From Paludibacteraceae bacterium (lineage in GTDB: Bacteria; Bacteroidota; Bacteroidia; Bacteroidales; Paludibacteraceae): a DNA stretch of 56,233 nt. The notes beneath the pieces were generated by a model. That model saw only the letters and a list, made by a program, of their open reading frames with translations. It had not been told where the DNA came from and ran no database searches. Below are positions 12,828 to 22,747 of the stretch, piece after piece. Made by a program: the position numbers and the translations under genes. Every line of letters starts with the position of its first letter. Within the stretch, counting starts at the first letter, position 1. The stretch covers positions 1-56,233 of the forward strand of contig JAFSLP010000007.1 in assembly GCA_017448345.1 (NCBI GenBank). Reading direction: 5' to 3'.

Positions 12828-13628
12828 ATGAAAGCAATGAATTATTTAGCAGTAGCCATTATGGCACTGAGTCTGGTCGCAACTCCTGCTAACGCCCAGA
12901 GCCGCAAGGAGAAGAAAGAAGCCAAGAAAGAGGCTTGGAAACAGGACCAGAAACAAAATCTGGAGGAAGACGCTCTCCGTCATCAAATCCGCATGGATAG
13001 TATCCGCAATGCAGGCAAAGTAGCAGCGCAACAAGCCGCCAAAGAAGAAGCAGAGCGGCGTACAAAAGAAGCCGAGGAGAAAGCCAGACAAAAGAAAGCA
13101 GAGGAAGCCGCTACTTTGCAGGAAGTGGATTTTGACGAGCCATGTTCGGATTATCTGTCATCTGCAGATGTGATATATGGCAGAGGTAGCGGAGAGGATT
13201 TCGAGCAACAATTGTCAGCCGATATAGCACGCACTTCGGCTCTTGAAGAATTGGCATCGCAACTATCCACCAAGGTGCAAGCGATGGTCAGCAACTACCG
13301 CAAGCAATCGCGTAAAAATACCAAACGCGAGTCCATCAGCCGCATAGAAGGTCTGACGGTGACCGAGGTTGAGCAGGCAGTGGGATACCGTATCGCCTGC
13401 CGGAAGACAAAGACCTACGTACAGGACGGCGAACGGCTGTTCAAGACCTATATGGTAGTGGAACTGAACGAGGATATACTGCTTTCCGCTATCTACAAGA
13501 AGCTGCAGCAGGACCCGGAACTGAGTGTGGATGCCAGCTACAACCAGTTCAAGCAGGAGTTTGACGAGAACTTCAAGAACCAGTCGGAGGAAGTGCTGAA
13601 CAACGCCATTGAGGCGGCACAAGAGTAA
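12828..13628 (+). CDS. Secreted coiled-coil LPP20-like protein
   Basis: 266 aa. Signal peptide with cleavage after residue 23 (PANA-QS), a charged Lys/Glu/Ala coiled coil (about residues 25-95), then an LPP20-like domain (about 105-235: SSADVIYGRGSGEDFEQQLSADIARTSALEELASQL pattern, and the YMVVELNEDILLSAIYKKLQ strand-helix end). LPP20-type domains occur in outer-membrane-associated lipoproteins; there is no lipobox here, so it is probably periplasmic. It begins the gene run that contains the DGR and resembles the LPP20-like protein at 16903. The function is not known; the neighbourhood suggests one surface or envelope assembly. Confidence 0.75.
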   Translation: MKAMNYLAVAIMALSLVATPANAQSRKEKKEAKKEAWKQDQKQNLEEDALRHQIRMDSIRNAGKVAAQQAAKEEAERRTKEAEEKARQKKAEEAATLQEVDFDEPCSDYLSSADVIYGRGSGEDFEQQLSADIARTSALEELASQLSTKVQAMVSNYRKQSRKNTKRESISRIEGLTVTEVEQAVGYRIACRKTKTYVQDGERLFKTYMVVELNEDILLSAIYKKLQQDPELSVDASYNQFKQEFDENFKNQSEEVLNNAIEAAQE

Positions 13629-13685
13629 GCCACACCGGCAAATTGCGCCGAGGGGGCTGATACCTCCCCCGGCACTAAAGTCCCC

Positions 13686-13733
13686 GAGCCCCCTCTGTAA
13701 GGGGGAGAGAAGGACACCGGCATGCTATGCCGG
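13686..13733 (+). repeat. Composite hairpin repeat, upstream of the DGR
   Basis: CCCCCTCTGTAAGGGGG (13690-13706), then GAGAGAAGGACA and the hairpin CCGGCAT-gct-ATGCCGG (13717-13733). A direct copy with changes lies at 17970-18024, so the two bracket the DGR cassette in the same orientation. Confidence 0.8.
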
Positions 13734-13764
13734 AGAAACGGACATTGTTTATATAGAAAAGAAT

Positions 13765-15039
13765 ATGAAAAAATTATTCATTGTTTTGCTTTCAGCCCTC
13801 TCACTGACGGCGGTGGCACAAGAAACCAAGAAAGTAGCCATCCTTGAAACAGTTGACAAAGTGGGCGATGTGCCGTACGGCATCAAACTGCAAGTGCGCA
13901 TGAGTCTGACGTACGCCATCAGCAACACGCCCGGTTATGAAGGTTATGACCGCGTGGATATGGCATCCATCATGGGCGAGCAGAACTTCCAGCGAACCGG
14001 TATGGTGAGTGATGCGCAAATCAAGAAACTTGGCGAGATGACCGGTGCGCAGTATGTGCTGATAGCCGAGGCAGCTTTGTATGATGCGCAGAACATCATC
14101 ATCACTGCCAAAGTATTGGACGTAGAGACCGGCGGTGTGGCAAACTCCGCTCCTCCTGCATGGGCGGGAAAAGACCCGGAGAAAATGCAGGCGGCTTGCG
14201 TCACTTTGGCGCAGAAGTTATTAGGAAAACGCTCGTCGTCATCCTCCAGTTATTCTTATTCTTCATCCAAAAGCGGGAGTTATGGCGGAGGATATGGAAG
14301 TAACCAAGACTTTACCGAGGACGCATTGGGTATCAATATGAAGATGATTTGGGTCGAAGGCGGCGAGTTTATGATGGGTTGTACTTCCGAGCAAGGCAGT
14401 TGTGAAAGCGACGAGCAGAATGTGCGGCGTGTGACGGTCGATGGGTTCTATATCGGCATGCTTGAGGTGACCCAGTCGCAATGGGAGAAAGTCGTAGGAA
14501 CTAATGTTTATACTCAGAGAAACAAGGCAAATTCAAGTTGGTCTATGGCTGGTGTAGGACCGGATTACCCGATGTATTATGTCAGTTGGGAGGAGGCGAT
14601 GGAGTTCTGTCGTTTGTTGAGTAACAAGACAGGAAAGACCTATACCCTGCCGACCGAGGCGCAATGGGAGTATGCAGCACGTGGCGGTAAGAAAGCAGAC
14701 GGCACCAAATACGCAGGCAGTAACATGATTGATGTGGTAGCTTGGTATAGTGATAACAGTGGCAGTAGTACTCATCCTTGTGGTACGAAACGCGCCAATG
14801 CATTGGGCATCTATGATATGAGCGGTAATGTATGGGAGTGGTGCAAAGACTGGTATAGCAGCAGTTACGCCAGTTATGATACCAATAACCCTGTAGGTCC
14901 GTCGTCGGGTTCGAACCGCGTGAATCGGGGAGGTAGCTGGTGCAACTTCGCATCTCTCTGCCGCGTTGCGGATCGTAATTACAGCTCGCCCGGCGCCCGC
15001 TACTTCAACCTCGGCTTCCGCGTAGTACTCCTCCCGTGA
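13765..15039 (+). CDS. DGR target protein: CsgG/LpoB-like domain plus formylglycine-enzyme/C-type-lectin-fold variable domain
   Basis: 424 aa. Signal peptide MKKLFIVLLSALSLTAVAQ. Residues 20-150 resemble the CsgG/LpoB-type domain (KVAILE, R.SLTYAISNTPGYEGYDRVDMASIM, LGEMTGAQYVL, AKVLDVETG). Residues 152-180 are a Ser/Gly/Tyr linker. Residues 190-424 are an FGE-sulfatase domain (MIWVEGGEFMMG, EVTQSQWEKV, YVSWEEAMEFCR, LPTEAQWEYAARGG, NVWEWCKDW, NRGGSW, NLGFRVV). The last 46 codons are the variable repeat. Relative to the template the altered residues are Cys393, Phe395, Leu398, Asp403, Tyr406, Ser407, Ala411, Tyr413 and Phe414, which replace template Asn codons. Expected role: surface or periplasmic binding protein with a diversifiable ligand face. 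The start is ATG 13765; the frame's earlier ATG at 13609 would overlap the previous gene. Confidence 0.9.
   Translation: MKKLFIVLLSALSLTAVAQETKKVAILETVDKVGDVPYGIKLQVRMSLTYAISNTPGYEGYDRVDMASIMGEQNFQRTGMVSDAQIKKLGEMTGAQYVLIAEAALYDAQNIIITAKVLDVETGGVANSAPPAWAGKDPEKMQAACVTLAQKLLGKRSSSSSSYSYSSSKSGSYGGGYGSNQDFTEDALGINMKMIWVEGGEFMMGCTSEQGSCESDEQNVRRVTVDGFYIGMLEVTQSQWEKVVGTNVYTQRNKANSSWSMAGVGPDYPMYYVSWEEAMEFCRLLSNKTGKTYTLPTEAQWEYAARGGKKADGTKYAGSNMIDVVAWYSDNSGSSTHPCGTKRANALGIYDMSGNVWEWCKDWYSSSYASYDTNNPVGPSSGSNRVNRGGSWCNFASLCRVADRNYSSPGARYFNLGFRVVLLP
14901..15034 (+). repeat. DGR variable repeat (VR)
   Basis: 134 bp aligned without gaps to the template at 16599-16732. There are 17 mismatches: 16 at template adenines (9 A-to-T, 5 A-to-G, 2 A-to-C) and one at a template cytosine (14979). 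The last ~24 bp are identical to the template and serve as the likely homing-initiation (IMH-like) end. The VR stops 2 bp before the target gene's TGA. Confidence 0.95.
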
Positions 15040-15077
15040 GTTTATTGCGGAGCGTCCCTGCGAAAAGAGCACCAACA

Positions 15078-15116
15078 CGACGGACAGCGGCATAACGGAG
15101 TTGCCGCAGTCTGTCG
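15078..15116 (+). promoter_or_regulatory. Large hairpin downstream of the VR
   Basis: Arms 15078-15092 and 15102-15116 pair at 14 of 15 positions (one A-A mismatch, one G-T pair) around a 9-nt loop. It starts 43 bp after the VR. In the Bordetella phage DGR a hairpin just beyond the VR promotes homing; this one may do the same or may terminate the target mRNA. Confidence 0.65.
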
Positions 15117-15140
15117 GGAAGGTGCATAAAAACGAAAATT

Positions 15141-15611
15141 ATGCAGGTAAAGATATTTACGATACCAATATTTGACAATGAGAATGCGGTCAATGAACTG
15201 AATGCTTTCTTGCGTGCGCAAAAAATACTGACGGTTGACAAACAGTTGAGCACACAAGGGGCACAAGCATTCTGGACATTTTGTGTAAGCTATCTGCCGC
15301 AGACAATAGGCGGAAATACTTATTCCGGCGGCACCAAAGCAACCAAAGTGGATTACAAAGAAGTGCTGGACGAAAAGACGTTTGCTGTGTTCTCGCAGCT
15401 TCGATCCATCCGCAAGCAATTAGCAGAGCAAGAAGCAGTGCCGGCGTATGCAGTATTTACGGACAGCGAGTTGGCGGAAATAGCCAAATTAGAAACCATT
15501 GACATGGTGATGATTCAAACCATACCGGGTATAGGAGCCAAGCGTGCAGAAAAATACGGGAAATCCTTGTGCGAATCTTATATGAACGCAAAGAAAGAAA
15601 CAGAAACATGA
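15141..15611 (+). CDS. HRDC-domain DGR accessory protein
   Basis: 156 aa. The N-terminal part (MQVKIFTIPIF, NAFLRAQKIL, FWTFCVSYL) resembles the N-terminal domain of HRDC-type DGR accessory proteins. The C-terminal 75 residues form the HRDC domain (EQEAVPAYAVFTDSELAEIA...TIPGIGAKRAEKYG), a nucleic-acid-binding fold of RecQ and RNase D. HRDC proteins replace Avd in many DGRs, especially in Bacteroidota, and probably help cDNA synthesis or homing. Its stop overlaps the RT start by ATGA, so the two are translationally coupled. Confidence 0.88.
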   Translation: MQVKIFTIPIFDNENAVNELNAFLRAQKILTVDKQLSTQGAQAFWTFCVSYLPQTIGGNTYSGGTKATKVDYKEVLDEKTFAVFSQLRSIRKQLAEQEAVPAYAVFTDSELAEIAKLETIDMVMIQTIPGIGAKRAEKYGKSLCESYMNAKKETET

Positions 15612-16621
15612 AGCGGGTTGGGTATTTGACAGAACAGATAGCAGACATGGATAATCTGCGTCTGGCTTTTTTCAAAGCCCAGCGGGGGAAAAGAGCCAAG
15701 AAAGAAGTGGAAGCCTATCGTAAAGAATTGGATACCAATCTGCTACAACTTCGTGCTGAACTCATAGAGGGAAAGGTGAATGTGGGCAATTATCATTTGT
15801 TCAAAATATATGACCCTAAAGAACGGACGGTGTGCGCTGCCGCCTTCAGGGAACGTGTGCTGCACCATGCCTTGATGAATGTCTGTGCTCCTATTTTTGA
15901 ACGGCATTTCATAGAAACGACTTATGCGAACAGAACAAACAAGGGTACGTATAAAGCACTGGATACTGCATTCAAAGCAGTTAATAAATATGCGTATGTG
16001 GCAAAACTGGACGTGCGGAAATATTTTGACCATATAGACCATACTATATTGACAGCCCTATTAGGCAGGCTATTCAAAGACCAACGGTTATTACATGTAT
16101 TACAGCAGATTATACAATCATACCACGTAGAACTGGGGAAAGGGGTACCAATCGGAAATCTGACAAGCCAGTATTTTGCCAACTATTATTTGTCGCCTAT
16201 AGACCATTATGCAAAAGAAGAGTTGTCTATACCGATATACGTGCGCTATATGGATGATATATTGATGTTCCACAATGATTATGAAAGGCTGAAAGAAAAA
16301 GTCGTTGCTTATCAGCAAGCAGCAGAGACACGATTATTATTGACATTAAAGCCGCCAGTCATTCAAAAAACAGAAATACCGGTATCTTTTTTAGGTTATC
16401 GGCTCAGCAAGCATAAAATAGGACTGACCCAGCGGAGCAAGAAACGCTTTAAACAGAAATACAAGGCTGCTTTACGGGTACATGCGCATAACAGCCAGTC
16501 GGAACAAGAAACACAAGCGCATTTATTGCCATTGTTCGCCTTTGTCCAACATGGTTATACAAAGCGATACAGAAAACAAATACTAAACAAGGTGACAAGT
16601 CGTCGGGTTCAAACCGCGTGA
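15608..16621 (+). CDS. DGR reverse transcriptase
   Basis: 337 aa, typical DGR-RT size, with no maturase or endonuclease domain. RT motifs: early [26 protein letters not shown] (first catalytic Asp), [14 protein letters not shown] (residues 182-195, the [I/L]GxxxSQ form that marks DGR RTs instead of QGxxxSP), YMDD at 214-217, then [13 protein letters not shown]. It copies TR RNA into adenine-mutagenised cDNA that replaces the VR. The start is ATG 15608, which overlaps the HRDC gene; an in-frame ATG at 15569 lies inside that gene and is unlikely. The last 23 nt are the beginning of the TR, so RT coding and template overlap. Confidence 0.95.
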
Positions 16622-16732
16622 ATCGGGGAGGTAGCTGGAACAACAACGCATCTAACTGCCGCGTAGCGAATCGTAACAACAACTCGCCCGGCAACCGCAA
16701 CAACAACCTCGGCTTCCGCGTAGTACTCCTCC
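16599..16732 (+). repeat. DGR template repeat (TR)
   Basis: 134 bp, offset +1698 from the VR. It reads as 12 Asn codons (11 AAC, 1 AAT) in the part matching the variable residues, including three AAC-AAC-AAC runs, the usual enrichment of mutable adenines. It has 35 adenines in all, of which 16 differ in the VR. It overlaps the RT 3' end (to 16621) and must be transcribed with the RT mRNA or from its own start. Confidence 0.95.
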
Positions 16733-16902
16733 GGAGCTTATCGCAGGGACGGATGTCATGCAATAAACAGATTTGCCACCTATCTGCGCTGGCAGATAAA
16801 ATGAGCGGTCGTGTACCGCCAAAGAACAGATATTGGTAGGTTTGCCGGATCGTGAATTCGAAGATTTCTGTTCTTCAATGAAAACTAAAAGATAATATAT
16901 AG
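16733..16902. other. Spacer after the template repeat
   Basis: Likely part of the TR RNA. It holds TCGCAGGGACG at 16741-16751, the exact reverse complement of 15053-15063 downstream of the VR, and a small hairpin TATCTG...CAGATA near 16780-16798. No gene seen. Confidence 0.5.
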
Positions 16903-17970
16903 ATGAAAAAACTATTAATCATTTTGCTTTCAGCACTTTCGCTGACGGCAGGGGCACAGGTACCGGGGTGGGTGGATTCCGAAATGCGGGCATTGGAGTA
17001 TCCGCACGGGCAGTATTTTGTCGGCTTTGCCGAGGGGCAGCGGCAAAACGGGGAGAGTGTGGAGGCTGCTATGTCGCGGATGAAGAATGCCGCGCGGGTA
17101 GAAGCGGTCAGTAGTATCCGTGTGCATGTACAGAACACCACCGTCAATCAGGCTCTGTCGCAGACCTTGCGTACCATGGAAGGTACTTTCCGTCAATCGG
17201 CACGGGAGTTTTCTTCGGCTACTACTACCAGCGTGGATATGGAGATACCCGGTCTGCAGATAGAGAGTTGGCGCAATTCGCAGACGGGAGAGATAGCCGC
17301 TTTTGCTTATGTGAAGAAAGCGACCCTCATCCGGCAGTTAGAGAAGAAAATAACCGTCGGACTGACGAAGATAGAGACTTCGCTTGACCAGATAGACCAA
17401 CTCATAGCCACAGGGCAGAAGATGCAGGCACGCGAGCTGGCGGAAAGAACGGTGCCGCTTTTTTATGAGATAGACGAGGTGCAGAAACTGCTTGCTGCTG
17501 TGGATGAGAACGCCGATGAGGAGACGCTCCAACTGCAAGAGACACGCACGCTCCAGCATCGTCTGACAGGTATCATCGCCGACCTCAAGAACGGTATCAA
17601 CATTTACCTGATTTGCAATGCCTATATGTTCGGACAGACCTATTCAGCCCTGAAGGGCGAGATACAAGGGGCACTGAGTCCGATGGGTTGCACATTCGTG
17701 CGGACGGATGCCGGTGCCGACTGGATAATCACAGTGACGGCTACCGCGCGGGAATATAATGCGTCCTCGTATGGCAGCGTGACCACGTATTTCGCCTACG
17801 TGGATGCCAAAATCAGCATAGAGAAGGGCGCAACACGGCAACGTATCTACGAAGATGCCATCAGCGAGAAAGGCGGTCACACGCATAACTACGAACAAGC
17901 TGCACGGCAGGCATACAAAGACCTCTCGCCCAAGATTAGTGCCATCATCAAAGAGCAGATACAGCAATAG
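16903..17970 (+). CDS. Secreted LPP20-like protein downstream of the DGR
   Basis: 355 aa. The signal peptide MKKLLIILLSALSLTAGAQ is almost the same as that of the DGR target, at DNA level too. Residues 20-135 form an LPP20-like domain (PHGQYFVGFAEGQRQNGESVEAAMSRMKNAARVEAVSSI), followed by a helical stretch (about 140-200) and a C-terminal mixed domain (about 205-355) rich in beta strands with MFGQTYSALKGEIQGALSPMGCTFVRTDAGADWIITVTATAREY, reminiscent of CsgG-like or DUF4384-adjacent domains. Probably envelope-located. With the LPP20-like protein at 12828 it frames the DGR, which suggests that target and flanking proteins work together. Confidence 0.75.
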   Translation: MKKLLIILLSALSLTAGAQVPGWVDSEMRALEYPHGQYFVGFAEGQRQNGESVEAAMSRMKNAARVEAVSSIRVHVQNTTVNQALSQTLRTMEGTFRQSAREFSSATTTSVDMEIPGLQIESWRNSQTGEIAAFAYVKKATLIRQLEKKITVGLTKIETSLDQIDQLIATGQKMQARELAERTVPLFYEIDEVQKLLAAVDENADEETLQLQETRTLQHRLTGIIADLKNGINIYLICNAYMFGQTYSALKGEIQGALSPMGCTFVRTDAGADWIITVTATAREYNASSYGSVTTYFAYVDAKISIEKGATRQRIYEDAISEKGGHTHNYEQAARQAYKDLSPKISAIIKEQIQQ

Positions 17971-18024
17971 GCCCCCGGTCCCCTCAGTAAGAGGGAGAGA
18001 AGGGACACCGGCATGGCATGCCGG
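17970..18024 (+). repeat. Composite hairpin repeat, downstream of the DGR
   Basis: CCCCTCAGTAAGAGGG, then GAGAGAAGGGACA and the hairpin CCGGCAT-ggc-ATGCCGG (18008-18024). A direct copy of 13686-13733 with substitutions. Confidence 0.8.
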
Positions 18025-18213
18025 AGAAGGGGACAAGGTAATAACCTGACTGACCAGTCGGGATATTGAAGTAATATAGGTGTTGCATAGGGATGCCTAA
18101 GAGGTATATATGTGATGTCTAAGATATGTGTTTGTAGTTGGTTGATTATCAGCCGATTATAGACATATTTGTTTGTGAGGATAATCTTGCTTGAATCAAA
18201 ATTATCTTGCCGG

Positions 18214-18298: not shown

Positions 18299-19624
18299 AT
18301 GAAAAACGCTTATTGTGCCATAGACTTAGGAGCTACGAGCGGACGTGTCATCCTGTCCGCTGACGGCGTCACCATAGAAGAGATTCATCGCTTTCCCAAC
18401 CAAGTATATGAAAAGAACGGTCAGTTCTTTTGGGATACAGACCATCTGCTGCATGAAATCCGGCAAGGGTTAGGTCTGCTGGCAGCCCGCAAGGACCTGC
18501 ATATTTGCAGCATAGGCGTGGACACATGGGGCGTGGACGTGGTGTATATAAGTAAGGAAGGACGTGCACTCGCGCATCCACGCGCTTACAGAGACCCTTA
18601 TACGGAAGGTGTTCAGCAAGAGTTCTTCAAGCAGATACCGCGTGACCGCATCTATGAAAAAACAGGAATCCAGTTTCTTGATTTCAATACACTGTTTCAG
18701 TTTTATGCCTGTGCCAAGGAGCATTACCAGCCATTCGAGCAGGCGGACAAATATCTTTTCATTCCGGATTACATCAACTATGAGCTGACCGGAGTGATGC
18801 GGTGCGAATATACGATTCTCTCTACCTCGCAACTCCTTCATGCGCACGACAGACAGCTGGATGCAGAGCTTGTGGAGAAGTGCGGAGCCAAGATGTCGTG
18901 TTTCCCTCCCATCGTCATGCCGGGCGAGCAGATCGGGTTTTTGAAACCCTCCGTGGCGGATTTCGGCTATCCGGTGCCGGTGACAGCCGTGGCGTCCCAT
19001 GACACGGCAAGTGCTGTCGCATCTGTTCCGCGGACGGTAGAGGGCAGGCATGCGGCTTATCTCTCCAGCGGTACGTGGAGCCTGATGGGGATTGTGGTGG
19101 ACGAACCTGTAATCACTCCTCTTACGGCAGAGATGAATTTTACCAACGAGGGTGGAGTGAACGGAACCATCCGTCTTCTGAAAAACATCACGGGAATGTG
19201 GATTCTGGAGCAGTGCAGAAAACAATGGAAGGCGCAGGGGACGGACTATTCCTATCCCGAACTGGTGGCAATGGCTCAGAGCGTCACGCAGACACCGGAG
19301 CTGTTCAACCCCGACGAACCACGGTTTGCCAATCCCGCAGACATGCCGGCGCAAGTACGCAACGGCAGAAACATGACCGATGCTGAGGTCGTCTCATGCA
19401 TCTATCATTCTCTGGCACATCGGTACGGAGAGGTGTTTGCCATGCTCCGCCGGATTGCGCCTTGGGAGCCAGAGGCGCTATATATCATCGGCGGCGGAGC
19501 GCGTAACACGTATCTGAACCGCCTGACGGAAGAAGAAACAGGGGTGCCGGTACTGACCGGTTCTACAGAGGCGACGGCACTCGGCAACATAGCCATACAG
19601 ATGCAGGCACACACTACAAAATGA
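18299..19624 (+). CDS. rhaB: L-rhamnulokinase
   Basis: 441 aa, FGGY sugar kinase family, somewhat shorter than E. coli RhaB (489). It phosphorylates L-rhamnulose to L-rhamnulose 1-phosphate with ATP in the cytoplasm. Visible motifs: AIDLGATSGRV phosphate-1 loop at residue 6, VDTWGVDVV (about 74), LFIPDYINYELTG (about 158), LSSGTWSLMG (about 255) and the adenosine motif YIIGGGARNTYLNRL (about 399). First gene of the rha operon; its TGA overlaps the rhaA start (ATGA). Confidence 0.95.
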   Translation: MKNAYCAIDLGATSGRVILSADGVTIEEIHRFPNQVYEKNGQFFWDTDHLLHEIRQGLGLLAARKDLHICSIGVDTWGVDVVYISKEGRALAHPRAYRDPYTEGVQQEFFKQIPRDRIYEKTGIQFLDFNTLFQFYACAKEHYQPFEQADKYLFIPDYINYELTGVMRCEYTILSTSQLLHAHDRQLDAELVEKCGAKMSCFPPIVMPGEQIGFLKPSVADFGYPVPVTAVASHDTASAVASVPRTVEGRHAAYLSSGTWSLMGIVVDEPVITPLTAEMNFTNEGGVNGTIRLLKNITGMWILEQCRKQWKAQGTDYSYPELVAMAQSVTQTPELFNPDEPRFANPADMPAQVRNGRNMTDAEVVSCIYHSLAHRYGEVFAMLRRIAPWEPEALYIIGGGARNTYLNRLTEEETGVPVLTGSTEATALGNIAIQMQAHTTK

Positions 19625-20889
19625 CATACACGATGAAAGACCAAATGATTCACGCAGCCTATGCGATAGCGAAGGAGCGTTATGCGGAATGGGGTGTTGA
19701 TACCGAAAAAGTGCTTGACACCCTCCAGAAATTTCAACTGTCCATGCACTGCTGGCAGGCGGATGACGTCTGCGGCTTCGAACCCAAGGCAGGAGCCATG
19801 TCCGGAGGTATCCAGTCCACCGGCAATTATCCCGGAAAAGCACGTAATATCGACGAGCTGCGCGCAGATATTCTGAAAGCCAAAAGTCTGATTCCCGGCA
19901 ACCACCGTCTCAACCTGCATGAGATATACGGCGAGTTCAACGGCAAGGCGGTTGACCGGGACCAGTGTGATATCTCGCTGTTCTCCGGTTGGATTGACTG
20001 GGCGAAGGAGCATAACACCAAACTGGATTTCAACAGCACGAATTTCTCCCATCCCAAATCGGGAAGTCTGACGATTTCCAATCCCGACAAGGACATACGC
20101 GATTTCTGGATAGAACATATGAAACGCTGCCGTGCCATAGCAAATGCTATCGGCGAGGCGCAGCAAGACCCCTGTATCATCAATCTCTGGATTCACGACG
20201 GCTCCAAGGACCTGACAGTCAACAGGCTCTTGTACCGGACGCTTCTCAAAGAAAGTCTGGATGACATTCTCCGTGAGAAATATCCGTGGGAGAAACCTTG
20301 TCTGGAGAGCAAGGTGTTCGGAATCGGGCTGGAGACGATGACCGTAGGCAGCAATGATTTTTATATCGCATATGCTTCCCGCAACAACGTGATGCTGACT
20401 CTGGATACCGGGCATTTCCATCCGACCGAGTCCGTGGCGGACAAAGTGTCCAGCCTGCTGCTGTTTGTGCCCGAGCTGATGCTTCATGTGAGCCGTCCGG
20501 TTCGCTGGGACTCCGACCACGTAACCATCATGGACGATCCGACTCTCGAACTGTTCCAAGAGATAGTCCGGGCGGATGCCACCGACAGAGTGCATTACGG
20601 GCTTGACTATTTCGACGGCAGTATCAACCGCATCGGTGCCTATGTCATCGGTTCGCGTGCCGCACAGCGCTGTATGCTGCGCGCATTGCTTGAGCCGGCA
20701 AACACTATCCGTACCGACGAGCTGAACGACCACGGATTCCAGAAACTCGCACGTCTGGAAGAGGAGAAGAGCATGCCGTGGCAGGCGGTGTATGACGAGT
20801 TCTGCTTGCGAAACAATGTTCCCGTCGGCTCAGATTTTATCGCAGAGATAGAGCAATACGAACGTGACGTAACATCCAAAAGAGGATAA
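19621..20889 (+). CDS. rhaA: L-rhamnose isomerase
   Basis: 422 aa, full length. A (beta/alpha)8-barrel metal enzyme that converts L-rhamnose to L-rhamnulose. Visible: FQLSMHCWQADDVCGFE near the N-terminus, NLHEIYGEF (metal-site Glu), LWIHDGSKD, SNDFYIAYA, MLTLDTGHFHPTESVADK (metal ligands Asp and His) and RWDSDHV. It starts 4 bp inside rhaB, and rhaT follows after 2 bp, so this is a tight operon. Confidence 0.97.
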   Translation: MTYTMKDQMIHAAYAIAKERYAEWGVDTEKVLDTLQKFQLSMHCWQADDVCGFEPKAGAMSGGIQSTGNYPGKARNIDELRADILKAKSLIPGNHRLNLHEIYGEFNGKAVDRDQCDISLFSGWIDWAKEHNTKLDFNSTNFSHPKSGSLTISNPDKDIRDFWIEHMKRCRAIANAIGEAQQDPCIINLWIHDGSKDLTVNRLLYRTLLKESLDDILREKYPWEKPCLESKVFGIGLETMTVGSNDFYIAYASRNNVMLTLDTGHFHPTESVADKVSSLLLFVPELMLHVSRPVRWDSDHVTIMDDPTLELFQEIVRADATDRVHYGLDYFDGSINRIGAYVIGSRAAQRCMLRALLEPANTIRTDELNDHGFQKLARLEEEKSMPWQAVYDEFCLRNNVPVGSDFIAEIEQYERDVTSKRG

Positions 20890-20891
20890 TC

Positions 20892-21932
20892 ATGAATATC
20901 TTTATCGGCATACTCATCATCGCCCTCGGCGCATTCTGCCAGTCCAGTTGCTATGTGCCTATCAACCGCATCCGTCAATGGTCATGGGAGAGTTACTGGC
21001 TCGTTCAGGGCGTTTTCGCATGGGTTCTGTTTCCTCTCTGCGGACTTTTCCTTGCCGTGCCTCACGGGGAACAGGTGTCAGGTCTCTTCGCAGCCGTACC
21101 GGCGTTCAATATCTGGATGACCGTCCTCTTCGGTGTGCTTTGGGGCATCGGCGGACTGACGTTCGGTCTCTCGATGCGGTATCTTGGCGTGGCGCTCGGT
21201 CAGAGTATCTCCTTGGGTACCTGCGCCGCGTTCGGCACTGTCATGGGTCCATTGATGATTCATGCCTTCTTTCCGGAGCTGGATGCTCTTTCCCAACTCA
21301 CATCGTCCGTTCTCGCCGGTGTCGCAGTCACTGTTACCGGAATAGCCGTCATCGGACTTGCGGGCAGCATGAGAAGCAAAGAGCAGACACAGGAAACAGA
21401 CAAGCCCGCCGGTACCGGTGAGACCGGTTTCCGTTTCGGCAAAGGTATCGCTATCGCACTCCTTGCGGGACTCATGTCGGGGTGTTTTAATGTTGGGCTG
21501 ACGTTCGGCGCAGACATATGCTTCGAGCACACCAATCCGATGTTCCGCACCCTTCCTGCCACGCTGCTGGTCACTCTGGGCGGTTTCTTCACCAATCTGG
21601 TGTACTGCCTGTGGCAGAACGTCAAAAACGGCACCCTCGCAGACTACGGAAAGACATCGGTGTGGCTTAATAATCTCCTTTACTGTATGCTTGCCGGTGC
21701 CTTGTGGTACAGCCAGTTCTTCGGGCTGTCGCTGGCAAAAGGTTTCCTCACGGAGAGTCCGCAGCTGATGACACTCTCTTTCTGCATCCTCATGGCGCTC
21801 AATGTGGTCTTTTCCAACGTGTGGGGGCTCATCCTTCATGAATGGAGAGGCTGTTCGCGCCGTACCGTCATGGTGCTCCTTGCCGGTATCGTTATCTTGT
21901 TAATCAGTAGTTTTATTCCCCAATGGTTATGA
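20892..21932 (+). CDS. rhaT: L-rhamnose/H+ symporter
   Basis: 346 aa, about ten transmembrane helices, RhaT family of the drug/metabolite transporter superfamily. Typical RhaT features: the N-terminal GAFCQSSCYVPINRIRQWSWESYW, GLTFGLSMRYLGVALGQSISLGTCAAFGTV and C-terminal WYSQFFGLSLAKGF. It imports rhamnose across the inner membrane. It overlaps rhaD by 4 to 10 bp, depending on which start is used there. Confidence 0.96.
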   Translation: MNIFIGILIIALGAFCQSSCYVPINRIRQWSWESYWLVQGVFAWVLFPLCGLFLAVPHGEQVSGLFAAVPAFNIWMTVLFGVLWGIGGLTFGLSMRYLGVALGQSISLGTCAAFGTVMGPLMIHAFFPELDALSQLTSSVLAGVAVTVTGIAVIGLAGSMRSKEQTQETDKPAGTGETGFRFGKGIAIALLAGLMSGCFNVGLTFGADICFEHTNPMFRTLPATLLVTLGGFFTNLVYCLWQNVKNGTLADYGKTSVWLNNLLYCMLAGALWYSQFFGLSLAKGFLTESPQLMTLSFCILMALNVVFSNVWGLILHEWRGCSRRTVMVLLAGIVILLISSFIPQWL

Positions 21933-22747
21933 GTATCTTGGAAAACAACAACGCACTCTCCCAGCTAATAGCAGATATTGCGGAAGTGGCGGGTCATATA
22001 TGGCTCAAAGGGTGGGGTGAACGCAACGGCGGAAACATCACCGTGCGTCTCACCGACTGTGCGGAACCTGACTGGGCGGATCTGCCGCCCCTCACCGAAC
22101 CCATTCCTATCGGTGCTGTGCTCCCTCATCTCAAAGGGCATTATTTCTATGCCAAAGGAACGCAGAAACGGATGAGGGATCTTGCCCGCGCACCCATGCG
22201 TAACGGTGCCGTCATCCGTATCACCGATGATTGTGCGCATTACCAGATAATAGCCGACAGTCCCGTCAAGCCTACTTCCGAACTGCCGTCCCACCTCATG
22301 GTGCAGAATTACCTCGTGGGGTCCGGCAGCCGTTATACGGCGACGCTCCATACACATCCCATAGAGCTTGTCGCGATGTCCCATCTTACCCGTTTCCAAG
22401 ACAGCGACACCCTCACGCAAACCCTATGGTCCATGATTCCGGAGACGCTTGCTTTCGCTCCACTGGGCATAGGCTGGGTGCCGTATGAGCTACCCGGTTC
22501 CATCGAGCTTGCACAGGCTACCCTTGCACAGATACACGACTATGACGTCACCCTTTGGGAGAAACACGGTGTCTTCGCCGTAGGGCAGGATATCATGGAT
22601 GCGTTTGACCAAGTGGATGTGCTCAATAAAGCGGCGGTCATCTACATGTCGGCACGCGCCATGGGAGGAGAGCCCGAAGGACTCGCACCGCAGGATATGA
22701 AGGACATACAACGCATCTTCGCCCTCCCAAAAACAAGAATAAACTAA
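21923..22747 (+). CDS. rhaD: L-rhamnulose-1-phosphate aldolase
   Basis: 274 aa, class II zinc aldolase/adducin family. It splits rhamnulose 1-phosphate into dihydroxyacetone phosphate and L-lactaldehyde. Visible: GWGERNGGNITVRLTD, the zinc-ligand His pair in ATLHTHPIELVAMSH, LWEKHGVFAVGQD (third His) and AFDQVDVLNKAA. Two possible starts are ATG 21923 and ATG 21929; the second (MSILENN) overlaps the rhaT stop by ATGA. Last catabolic gene before the susC gene, 23 bp away, so sugar breakdown and glycan uptake share a transcript or are at least adjacent. Confidence 0.96.
   Translation: MVMSILENNNALSQLIADIAEVAGHIWLKGWGERNGGNITVRLTDCAEPDWADLPPLTEPIPIGAVLPHLKGHYFYAKGTQKRMRDLARAPMRNGAVIRITDDCAHYQIIADSPVKPTSELPSHLMVQNYLVGSGSRYTATLHTHPIELVAMSHLTRFQDSDTLTQTLWSMIPETLAFAPLGIGWVPYELPGSIELAQATLAQIHDYDVTLWEKHGVFAVGQDIMDAFDQVDVLNKAAVIYMSARAMGGEPEGLAPQDMKDIQRIFALPKTRIN

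Follow-up and report, generated by a model that had tools for sequence, protein, structure and literature searches.

How does the copied DNA of a diversity-generating retroelement (DGR) find the gene that it rewrites? In DGRs, a reverse transcriptase (RT) copies a template repeat (TR) with errors at adenines, and the complementary DNA (cDNA) replaces a variable repeat (VR) in a target gene. Delivery of this cDNA into the VR 'remains incompletely understood' in the words of a 2026 study (PMC12875486), and the experiments cited in passages of that study and of PMC3240598 concern one Avd-type phage element. The window analysed here, a stretch of 56,233 nucleotides (nt) from a Paludibacteraceae bacterium (GenBank assembly GCA_017448345.1, contig JAFSLP010000007.1), holds an intact DGR of the HRDC type, complete on the + strand, in which a flank directly 3' of the VR, here termed X', is complementary to a flank directly 3' of the TR, termed X. 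These flanks, which we regard as the main point of the locus, lie outside the coordinates of an earlier sequence-only reading. They seem to be new, a point that is not certain: the portions of the open-access DGR literature searched do not mention complementary TR/VR flanks, which may be known to specialists. From a purely comparative analysis of sequences, mostly metagenome-assembled genomes, we suggest that HRDC-type DGRs probably choose their target through base pairing of X in the template RNA with X' at the VR.

Approximately 30 nt after the VR (15040-15070) form, in two arms, the reverse complement of approximately 33 nt after the TR (16736-16768; Table 1). The arms follow one another as a and b when read away from the TR and as b' and a' when read away from the VR. 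The complement score of 27 was equalled by none of 20,000 dinucleotide shuffles, and the predicted RNA duplex of -41.2 kcal/mol was matched by none of 2000. Among 50-mers taken every 10 bases from the window, only two, both containing X, scored as high against X'.

The same arrangement recurs in relatives of the element. An RT scan of a species-genome collection gave 359 relatives, of which the best 80 were kept, and viral contigs added another 17; to be kept, a TR/VR pair had to have no less than 80% of its mismatches at adenines and a repeat of at least 75 nt, identical flank pairs were counted once, and one locus with the same DNA as the window (L020) was left out of all counts. In this first set, 64 of 75 unique HRDC-type pairs (56/66 loci) had a complement above the 99th percentile of shuffled flanks, which served as the cut. 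A second set, fetched from the phylum by HRDC profile and mostly from one genus, comprised 27 stretches; once identical flank pairs had been counted a single time, which removed L160 (= L085) and L162 (= L087) as the same DNA, its 28 pairs came from 19 RT loci, and the complement was present in 25/28 pairs and 18/19 RT loci. An RNA model of the TR flanks alone yielded the third set, which shared no sampled 60-mer with the earlier sets; its nine stretches gave five usable pairs, all complementary (no shuffle out of 2000 scored as high for four of them, and three did for the fifth), while three pairs of L257, being tandem repeats, were set aside and no pair came from L252, L254, or L256. By the same cut, the complement was absent from all 47 BPP-1-like pairs (best pair per locus; 67 loci, 53 with a pair) and from all ten other HRDC-less pairs. 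At BPP-1 itself a signal of 23 with the annotated repeat ends became 18, not above the cut, with ends set as in the other loci, and was rejected.

The complement is also specific in placement. Comparing 3' with 3' flanks gave the 64/75 pairs above, comparing 5' with 5' flanks gave 0/76, and shifted or swapped flanks gave 1, 2, and 4 of 75; in direct orientation 8/75 passed, which is near background. X' is not confined to VRs upstream of the template: 19 of 23 VRs located 3' of the TR bear it, the four exceptions being two in L171, one VR-VR call (L061), and one repeat end set at the wrong place (L155). Two other sources were considered and rejected, namely terminal inverted repeats of the HRDC-RT-TR cassette, since further VRs of a locus and these 19 VRs carry X', and copies of one palindrome, given the direct similarity in 8/75 versus the complement in 64/75. 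As a separate observation, one 20-kb stretch (L151, G335:C43:1-20000) holds two HRDC-type cassettes and several VRs, each found with its own X'.

Between loci the arms vary while their complementarity is kept. In 23 non-overlapping nearest locus pairs, formed by 46 of the 48 loci that have both end boxes (the best-fitting box being used if there were several), we counted 58 double changes that retain Watson-Crick pairing, compared with a mean of 4.4 and a maximum of 12 in 1000 permutations. An anchor blind to the fit, namely the first GCTYA box on the TR side and the first TRAGC box on the VR side, left 59 unique arm pairs (29 of 103 pairs lack a box and were left out); over positions +4 to +14, 518 of 649 cells pair, a count that never exceeded 292 over 2000 permutations. 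Position +4 alone uses all four Watson-Crick pairs (A-T 23, T-A 15, C-G 13, G-C 7) and is paired in 58/59 cases versus 17.1 expected. In six genomes picked for having two cassettes with differing flanks, every VR flank gives a better score against the TR flank of its own cassette than against that of the other (G248 was judged by alignment score only). Arm a is the stronger of the two, with a median of 15.8 versus 6.5 when mispaired and all 16 of 16 pairs in 11 of the 48 loci. Pairing kept in step across such distances must have been either selected or copied. The centre of X and X' is mismatched in many loci whose arms match; these central mismatches, together with the presence of X' at VRs 3' of the TR, make X as the reader of an address in X' the simplest reading. 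Altogether, the pairing of X with X' appears well supported by these comparisons, whereas the function that we assign to it is inferred.

Several observations weigh against target choice by pairing. Ten of the 66 first-set loci miss the cut; three of them (L030, L037, and L049) pass with alternative repeat ends, but L036 has no complement and L066 only about 8 nt. L171, with a distant HRDC-like gene and three VRs, has no complementary flanks and possibly represents another accessory type. The end boxes are common rather than universal: TR flanks start with CTYA in 51/75 and contain TRAAC in 59/75, and VR flanks contain TRAGC in 56/75 and start with TTYA in only 19/75. Next to the double changes, the same 23 locus pairs tolerate 16 changes confined to the TR side, 35 confined to the VR side, and 25 of other kinds. 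Complementarity is weak in arm b (median 7.7 versus 5.8 mispaired), and arm a falls to nine pairs in two loci and to five in one. In the second set the flanks are alike between species and mispaired loci score nearly as well as true ones (24.8 versus 28.9), and the set therefore replicates the feature but hardly the covariation. Finally, the RNA of the window taken alone folds hardly better than shuffles (z -1.28), and X folds on itself through a few covarying pairs, so part of its conservation may serve a local hairpin.

In the model that we favour, the RT would copy the TR part of the template RNA, erring at adenines, and the cDNA would replace the VR in the target gene. Arms a and b of X are complementary to the sense strand directly 3' of the VR (arms b' and a'), and in the model the template RNA with the RT and the HRDC protein would dock on X' of the opened target DNA or, less likely, of the target mRNA. 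Such docking would place the template beside the site where the cDNA must join and would tell the VR from the TR, which bears the flank in the opposite orientation; given how alike the two repeats are otherwise, the inverted flank would also mark which is donor and which recipient. The HRDC protein may serve to open or hold the duplex. In the boldest version, a sense-strand 3' end at the end of X' would prime cDNA synthesis straight into the TR. Pairing would bring the end of X' up against that of the TR, a geometry that is compatible with such priming without being evidence for it; for BPP-1, passages of PMC12875486 describe cDNA primed from spacer RNA after the TR. We tentatively speculate, at slightly less than even confidence, that HRDC-type DGRs are RNA-addressed mutagenic retroelements, in which the 3' flank of the template RNA recognises a two-arm address of about 25 bp next to the target, much as EBS recognises IBS in group II introns, and in which the sense-strand end of this address may prime the cDNA.

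Among alternatives, the best survivor, which we nonetheless consider unlikely, is control at the RNA level, whereby X' in the 3' untranslated region of the target mRNA would pair with X and make the processing, stability, or supply of the template RNA depend on how the target is expressed, without influencing which site is targeted. In the window X' follows the stop codon (15037-15039), which fits this idea, VR and TR could share one transcript in the common layout, and pairing would open the local hairpin of X. For an RNA switch, however, X' could lie farther than a few nt from the end of the VR, and the 19 of 23 VRs that carry X' 3' of the TR mean that pairing from upstream to downstream in one transcript is not the rule. 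Marginally less likely again is that the complementarity is a by-product of DNA copying, either because the TR arose from the VR with its flank turned, by a hairpin or an inversion, or because X' is rewritten from X in the course of homing. The flanks do look like one block in opposite orientations that begins at the repeat ends, but copying would tend to match the centre, which is mismatched in many loci with matching arms; direct homology is near background, one-sided changes stand beside double ones, and ordinary homing would probably bring X over in direct orientation. Far less probable than either is that X and X' are protein sites that bind the RT or the HRDC protein in opposite orientations with no need to pair: the recurring boxes (TRAGC 56/75, TRAAC 59/75) are as expected for such sites, but beyond them the letters vary in step, position +4 being paired by all four combinations, and the covariation itself already makes this explanation unlikely. 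As improbable is an ordinary BPP-1-type site with nothing more than a local hairpin after the VR, since BPP-1 does need inverted repeats there (passages of PMC3240598) but perfect stems of at least 6 bp with a short loop follow the VR in 36/47 BPP-1-like pairs versus 3/75 and 1/28 HRDC-type pairs, the best perfect stem in the VR flank of the window has 3 bp, and the ten other HRDC-less pairs have neither hairpin (0/10) nor complement.

On the template side, X forms the first part of a longer conserved region. A model of this region, R1, was built from 28 loci including the window and contains 16 pairs (RNAalifold), 15 of which have a change on both sides in some sequence. R1 matches 42 of 53 other HRDC-type loci, these being 53 of the 57 outside training (L020, L022, L058, and L103 were left out), and 25 of 27 second-set stretches, among which L160 equals the training locus L085 and the match of L171 is weak. 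In 49 of the 80 HRDC-less loci, R1 gave five weak matches (L109, L111, L112, L113, and L114; E 0.006 to 0.17), all directly after the TR and all leaving the first 38 positions, that is X, uncovered; the later part of the region may therefore be older than the X part. A stem of at least 3 bp (G-T allowed) closing a GGAY loop, as in the small hairpin inside X, occurs in 42/75 HRDC-type TR flanks and in 0/47 BPP-1-like ones. In this region no Rfam family reached its gathering score, either in the window or in nine relatives. Because the model has only 16 pairs and the fold of the window is unremarkable, we leave a full RNA structure unclaimed. Three stretches found with the model of the TR flanks (L252, L256, and L257) contain no full RT, the RT pieces of L257 lying in different frames, and are possibly orphan or decayed templates or contig ends.

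The remainder of the locus is that of a complete DGR. The sequence-only reading had described target, HRDC gene, RT, VR, and TR as all present and intact, in agreement with the open frames and Pfam matches found here (Table 1). The target protein combines a signal peptide (by eye), a CsgG-like N-terminal part, and a C-terminal domain of the FGE-sulfatase/C-type-lectin kind, and its nearest solved structure by sequence is variable protein 1 of Treponema denticola (2y3c, 8e-34). Between target and RT lies an HRDC gene and not avd, as judged from Pfam matches with no search aimed at Avd; the HRDC part of its product resembles the domains of RecQ and BLM, and the RecQ HRDC structure 1wud aligns with positions 79-147 of the HRDC family profile. 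Its stop codon overlaps the RT start (ATGA), and the last 23 nt of the RT gene are covered by the TR. The best structural match of the RT family in the Protein Data Bank (PDB) is 8ub7 (2.4e-52, 181.5 bits), which we take to be the BPP-1 RT (its length of 328 amino acids (aa) agrees), compared with the group II RT 6ar1 (95.7 bits), 5hhl, named a retron-type RT (78.5), and Retron Eco8 (24.0). A grouping of the RT with group II introns or retrons, which the sequence-only reading had named as grounds for abandoning its proposal, is thus not what these matches give. Nor is the locus a group II intron: the maturase model stays below its cut-off on the RT (105.6 versus 300 bits), and no Rfam family, group II intron RNA domains included, reached its gathering score in 14800-17000. 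The RT motifs IGNLTSQ (182-188) and YMDD (214-217) are invariant among five aligned RTs, and the former fits the DGR motif (I/V/L)GxxxSQ given in PMC3521204.

Table 1 Features of the DGR in the window, in order of position
Feature	Position	Strand	Remarks
DGR target gene, 424 aa	13765..15039	+	ATG 13765; Pfam FGE-sulfatase 6.3e-52; CsgG 8e-5 (weak)
Variable repeat (VR)	14901..15034	+	Ungapped alignment to TR
X', target flank	15040..15070	+	3' of VR and of stop codon 15037-15039
X' arm b', GTTTATTGC	15040-15048	+	Complementary to arm b, GCAATAAAC, 16760-16768
X' arm a', CGTCCCTGCG	15053-15062	+	Complementary to arm a, CGCAGGGACG, 16742-16751
X' outer AGC	15068-15070	+	Beyond arm a'
HRDC accessory gene, 156 aa	15141..15611	+	PF00570 1.5e-13
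DGR reverse transcriptase, 337 aa	15608..16621	+	ATG 15608; RVT_1 1.3e-15
Template repeat (TR)	16599..16732	+	RT gene ends 23 nt into the TR
X, template flank	16736..16768	+	GCTTA 16736-16740; arm a CGCAGGGACG 16742-16751; arm b GCAATAAAC 16760-16768
Conserved non-coding RNA region, model R1	16737..16883	+	Some 150 nt following the TR, with X at its start
Small hairpin GAC-GGAT-GTC inside X	16748..16757	+	GGAY loop

The adenine bias claimed in the earlier reading is borne out. Over 134 nt without gaps, 16 of the 17 TR/VR mismatches fall at TR adenines (9 A>T, 5 A>G, and 2 A>C, with 35 adenines in the TR), and the remaining one is C>T. Twelve VR codons differ from the TR, 11 of them through adenine changes (eight AAC and one each of AAT, TCA, and GTA), while the twelfth, AAC, is altered only by the silent C>T. 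The 44 full VR codons encode the C-terminal part of the FGE-sulfatase domain, all but its last residue, in a fold assigned by family. With A as a wildcard, the best other ungapped match of the TR in the window reaches 83/134, and the own assembly (2.5 Mb, 81% complete) contains no second copy of TR or VR, the next matches having E 1.89 or worse; it has one further RT match, which is much weaker.

A close RT is present in six of 151 genomes of the genus, the own genome counted. One of these cases is a contig of 3684 bp (G008:C48; L015, L020) in another species bin of the genus that is identical to 13466-17149 of the window, VR included; it may be shared DNA or misbinning, and we count it as not independent. 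The other four, whose repeats were taken from a repeat search with no selection for adenines, have the same gene order and mismatches at TR adenines in 16/16, 18/19, 15/15, and 20/20 cases. That the element is 'probably active', as the sequence-only reading put it, is in line with its open frames but is weaker than stated, given that its sole near copy is identical including the VR and is maybe the same DNA. Its relatives speak more clearly. Among 56 overlapping pairs of loci with similar TRs (the TRs differ at 364/7358 columns), the VRs differ at 952/1636 TR-adenine sites and 24/5358 others, and the loci L054 and L055, with identical TRs, differ in their VRs at 21/35 adenine sites and 0/90 others. 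Across 89 entries, TR adenines are changed in 1519/2987 cases and other bases in 53/8660; both of these totals include two duplicate records and come from pairs selected for adenine bias. Loci with similar TRs thus vary in the VR mainly at adenine sites, which indicates that the relatives diversify in nature.

The HRDC gene is present in 85 of 98 loci (the window and L020-L116), that is in all except L104-L116, and the TR lies downstream of the RT in 63 of the 68 loci with a TR/VR pair among L021-L099. In a tree of DGR RTs only, which included 15 of the 67 BPP-1-like RTs and admitted only RT stretches of at least 240 aa without stops, one branch with support 100/98 separates 80 HRDC-type RTs from 25 HRDC-less ones; the window RT, whose gene adjoins the HRDC gene, belongs to the HRDC clade, which in our sample contains many Bacteroidota and Chlorobiota and single loci labelled as other phyla. 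The earlier reading had set the order target-HRDC-RT-TR against the classic target-avd-TR-RT, a difference that stands but as a layout is already published: passages of Schillinger et al. 2012 (PMC3521204) assign a TR downstream of the RT to group 2 and a TR overlapping either end of the RT to group 3, and HRDC accessory genes are described, in the accessible text of PMC4891356, in T. denticola DGRs. Because both are in print, the locus itself adds one more member to a DGR type already described.

Around the DGR block, an intergenic repeat (13679-13744 and 17969-18035) occurs in pieces that are 83-88% alike, and 14 full or partial matches to it occur in the own genome. The target and the gene after the DGR begin with a similar signal-peptide coding start (13765-13820 and 16903-16958, 84% over 56 nt). 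The two genes flanking the DGR (12828-13628 and 16903-17970) have no Pfam or NCBIfam match; apparent relatives of both, judged by eye, also flank the DGR in L016, L017, and L018, and the DGR may therefore sit in a conserved cluster of secreted-protein genes. A rhamnulokinase-like gene lies within 18299-22747, and the genes after it are presumably further rhamnose genes.

A covarying link between template and target in the HRDC clade provides a concrete and programmable hypothesis for cDNA delivery. Through the pairing of the flanks, TRs could be matched to remote VRs, and the R1 region adds an RNA element not found in Rfam. If HRDC-type DGRs are indeed RNA-addressed in the sense of our speculation above, any gene with a VR end and a matching address could be diversified, and the addresses would keep several cassettes in one cell apart.

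Four known systems come closest to the element. The T. denticola DGR resembles it in that its HRDC gene overlaps the RT gene and in that variable protein 1 (2y3c, 8e-34) is related by sequence to the window target, and differs in having the accessory gene between TR and RT, with the TR first (passages of PMC4891356). Groups 2 and 3 of Schillinger et al. 2012 share the position of the TR downstream of the RT or overlapping one of its ends, and the consulted parts of that paper (PMC3521204) make no mention of complementary TR/VR flanks. The DGR of Bordetella phage BPP-1, of the Avd type, shares adenine-specific copying from TR to VR and a related RT (8ub7, 181.5 bits), but has Avd instead of HRDC, the TR before the RT, a TR flank with no complement above the cut, and a GC-rich hairpin with a 4-nt loop after the VR that the window does not contain. 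Finally, we note that in group II introns, the RTs of which are related, EBS-IBS pairing allows the RNA to select its DNA target by pairing with the sense strand. The proposed address would be alike in that an RNA chooses the DNA target, while the DGR differs in copying and replacing with neither splicing nor a ribozyme, and its RT in the window is clearly nearer to the DGR RT.

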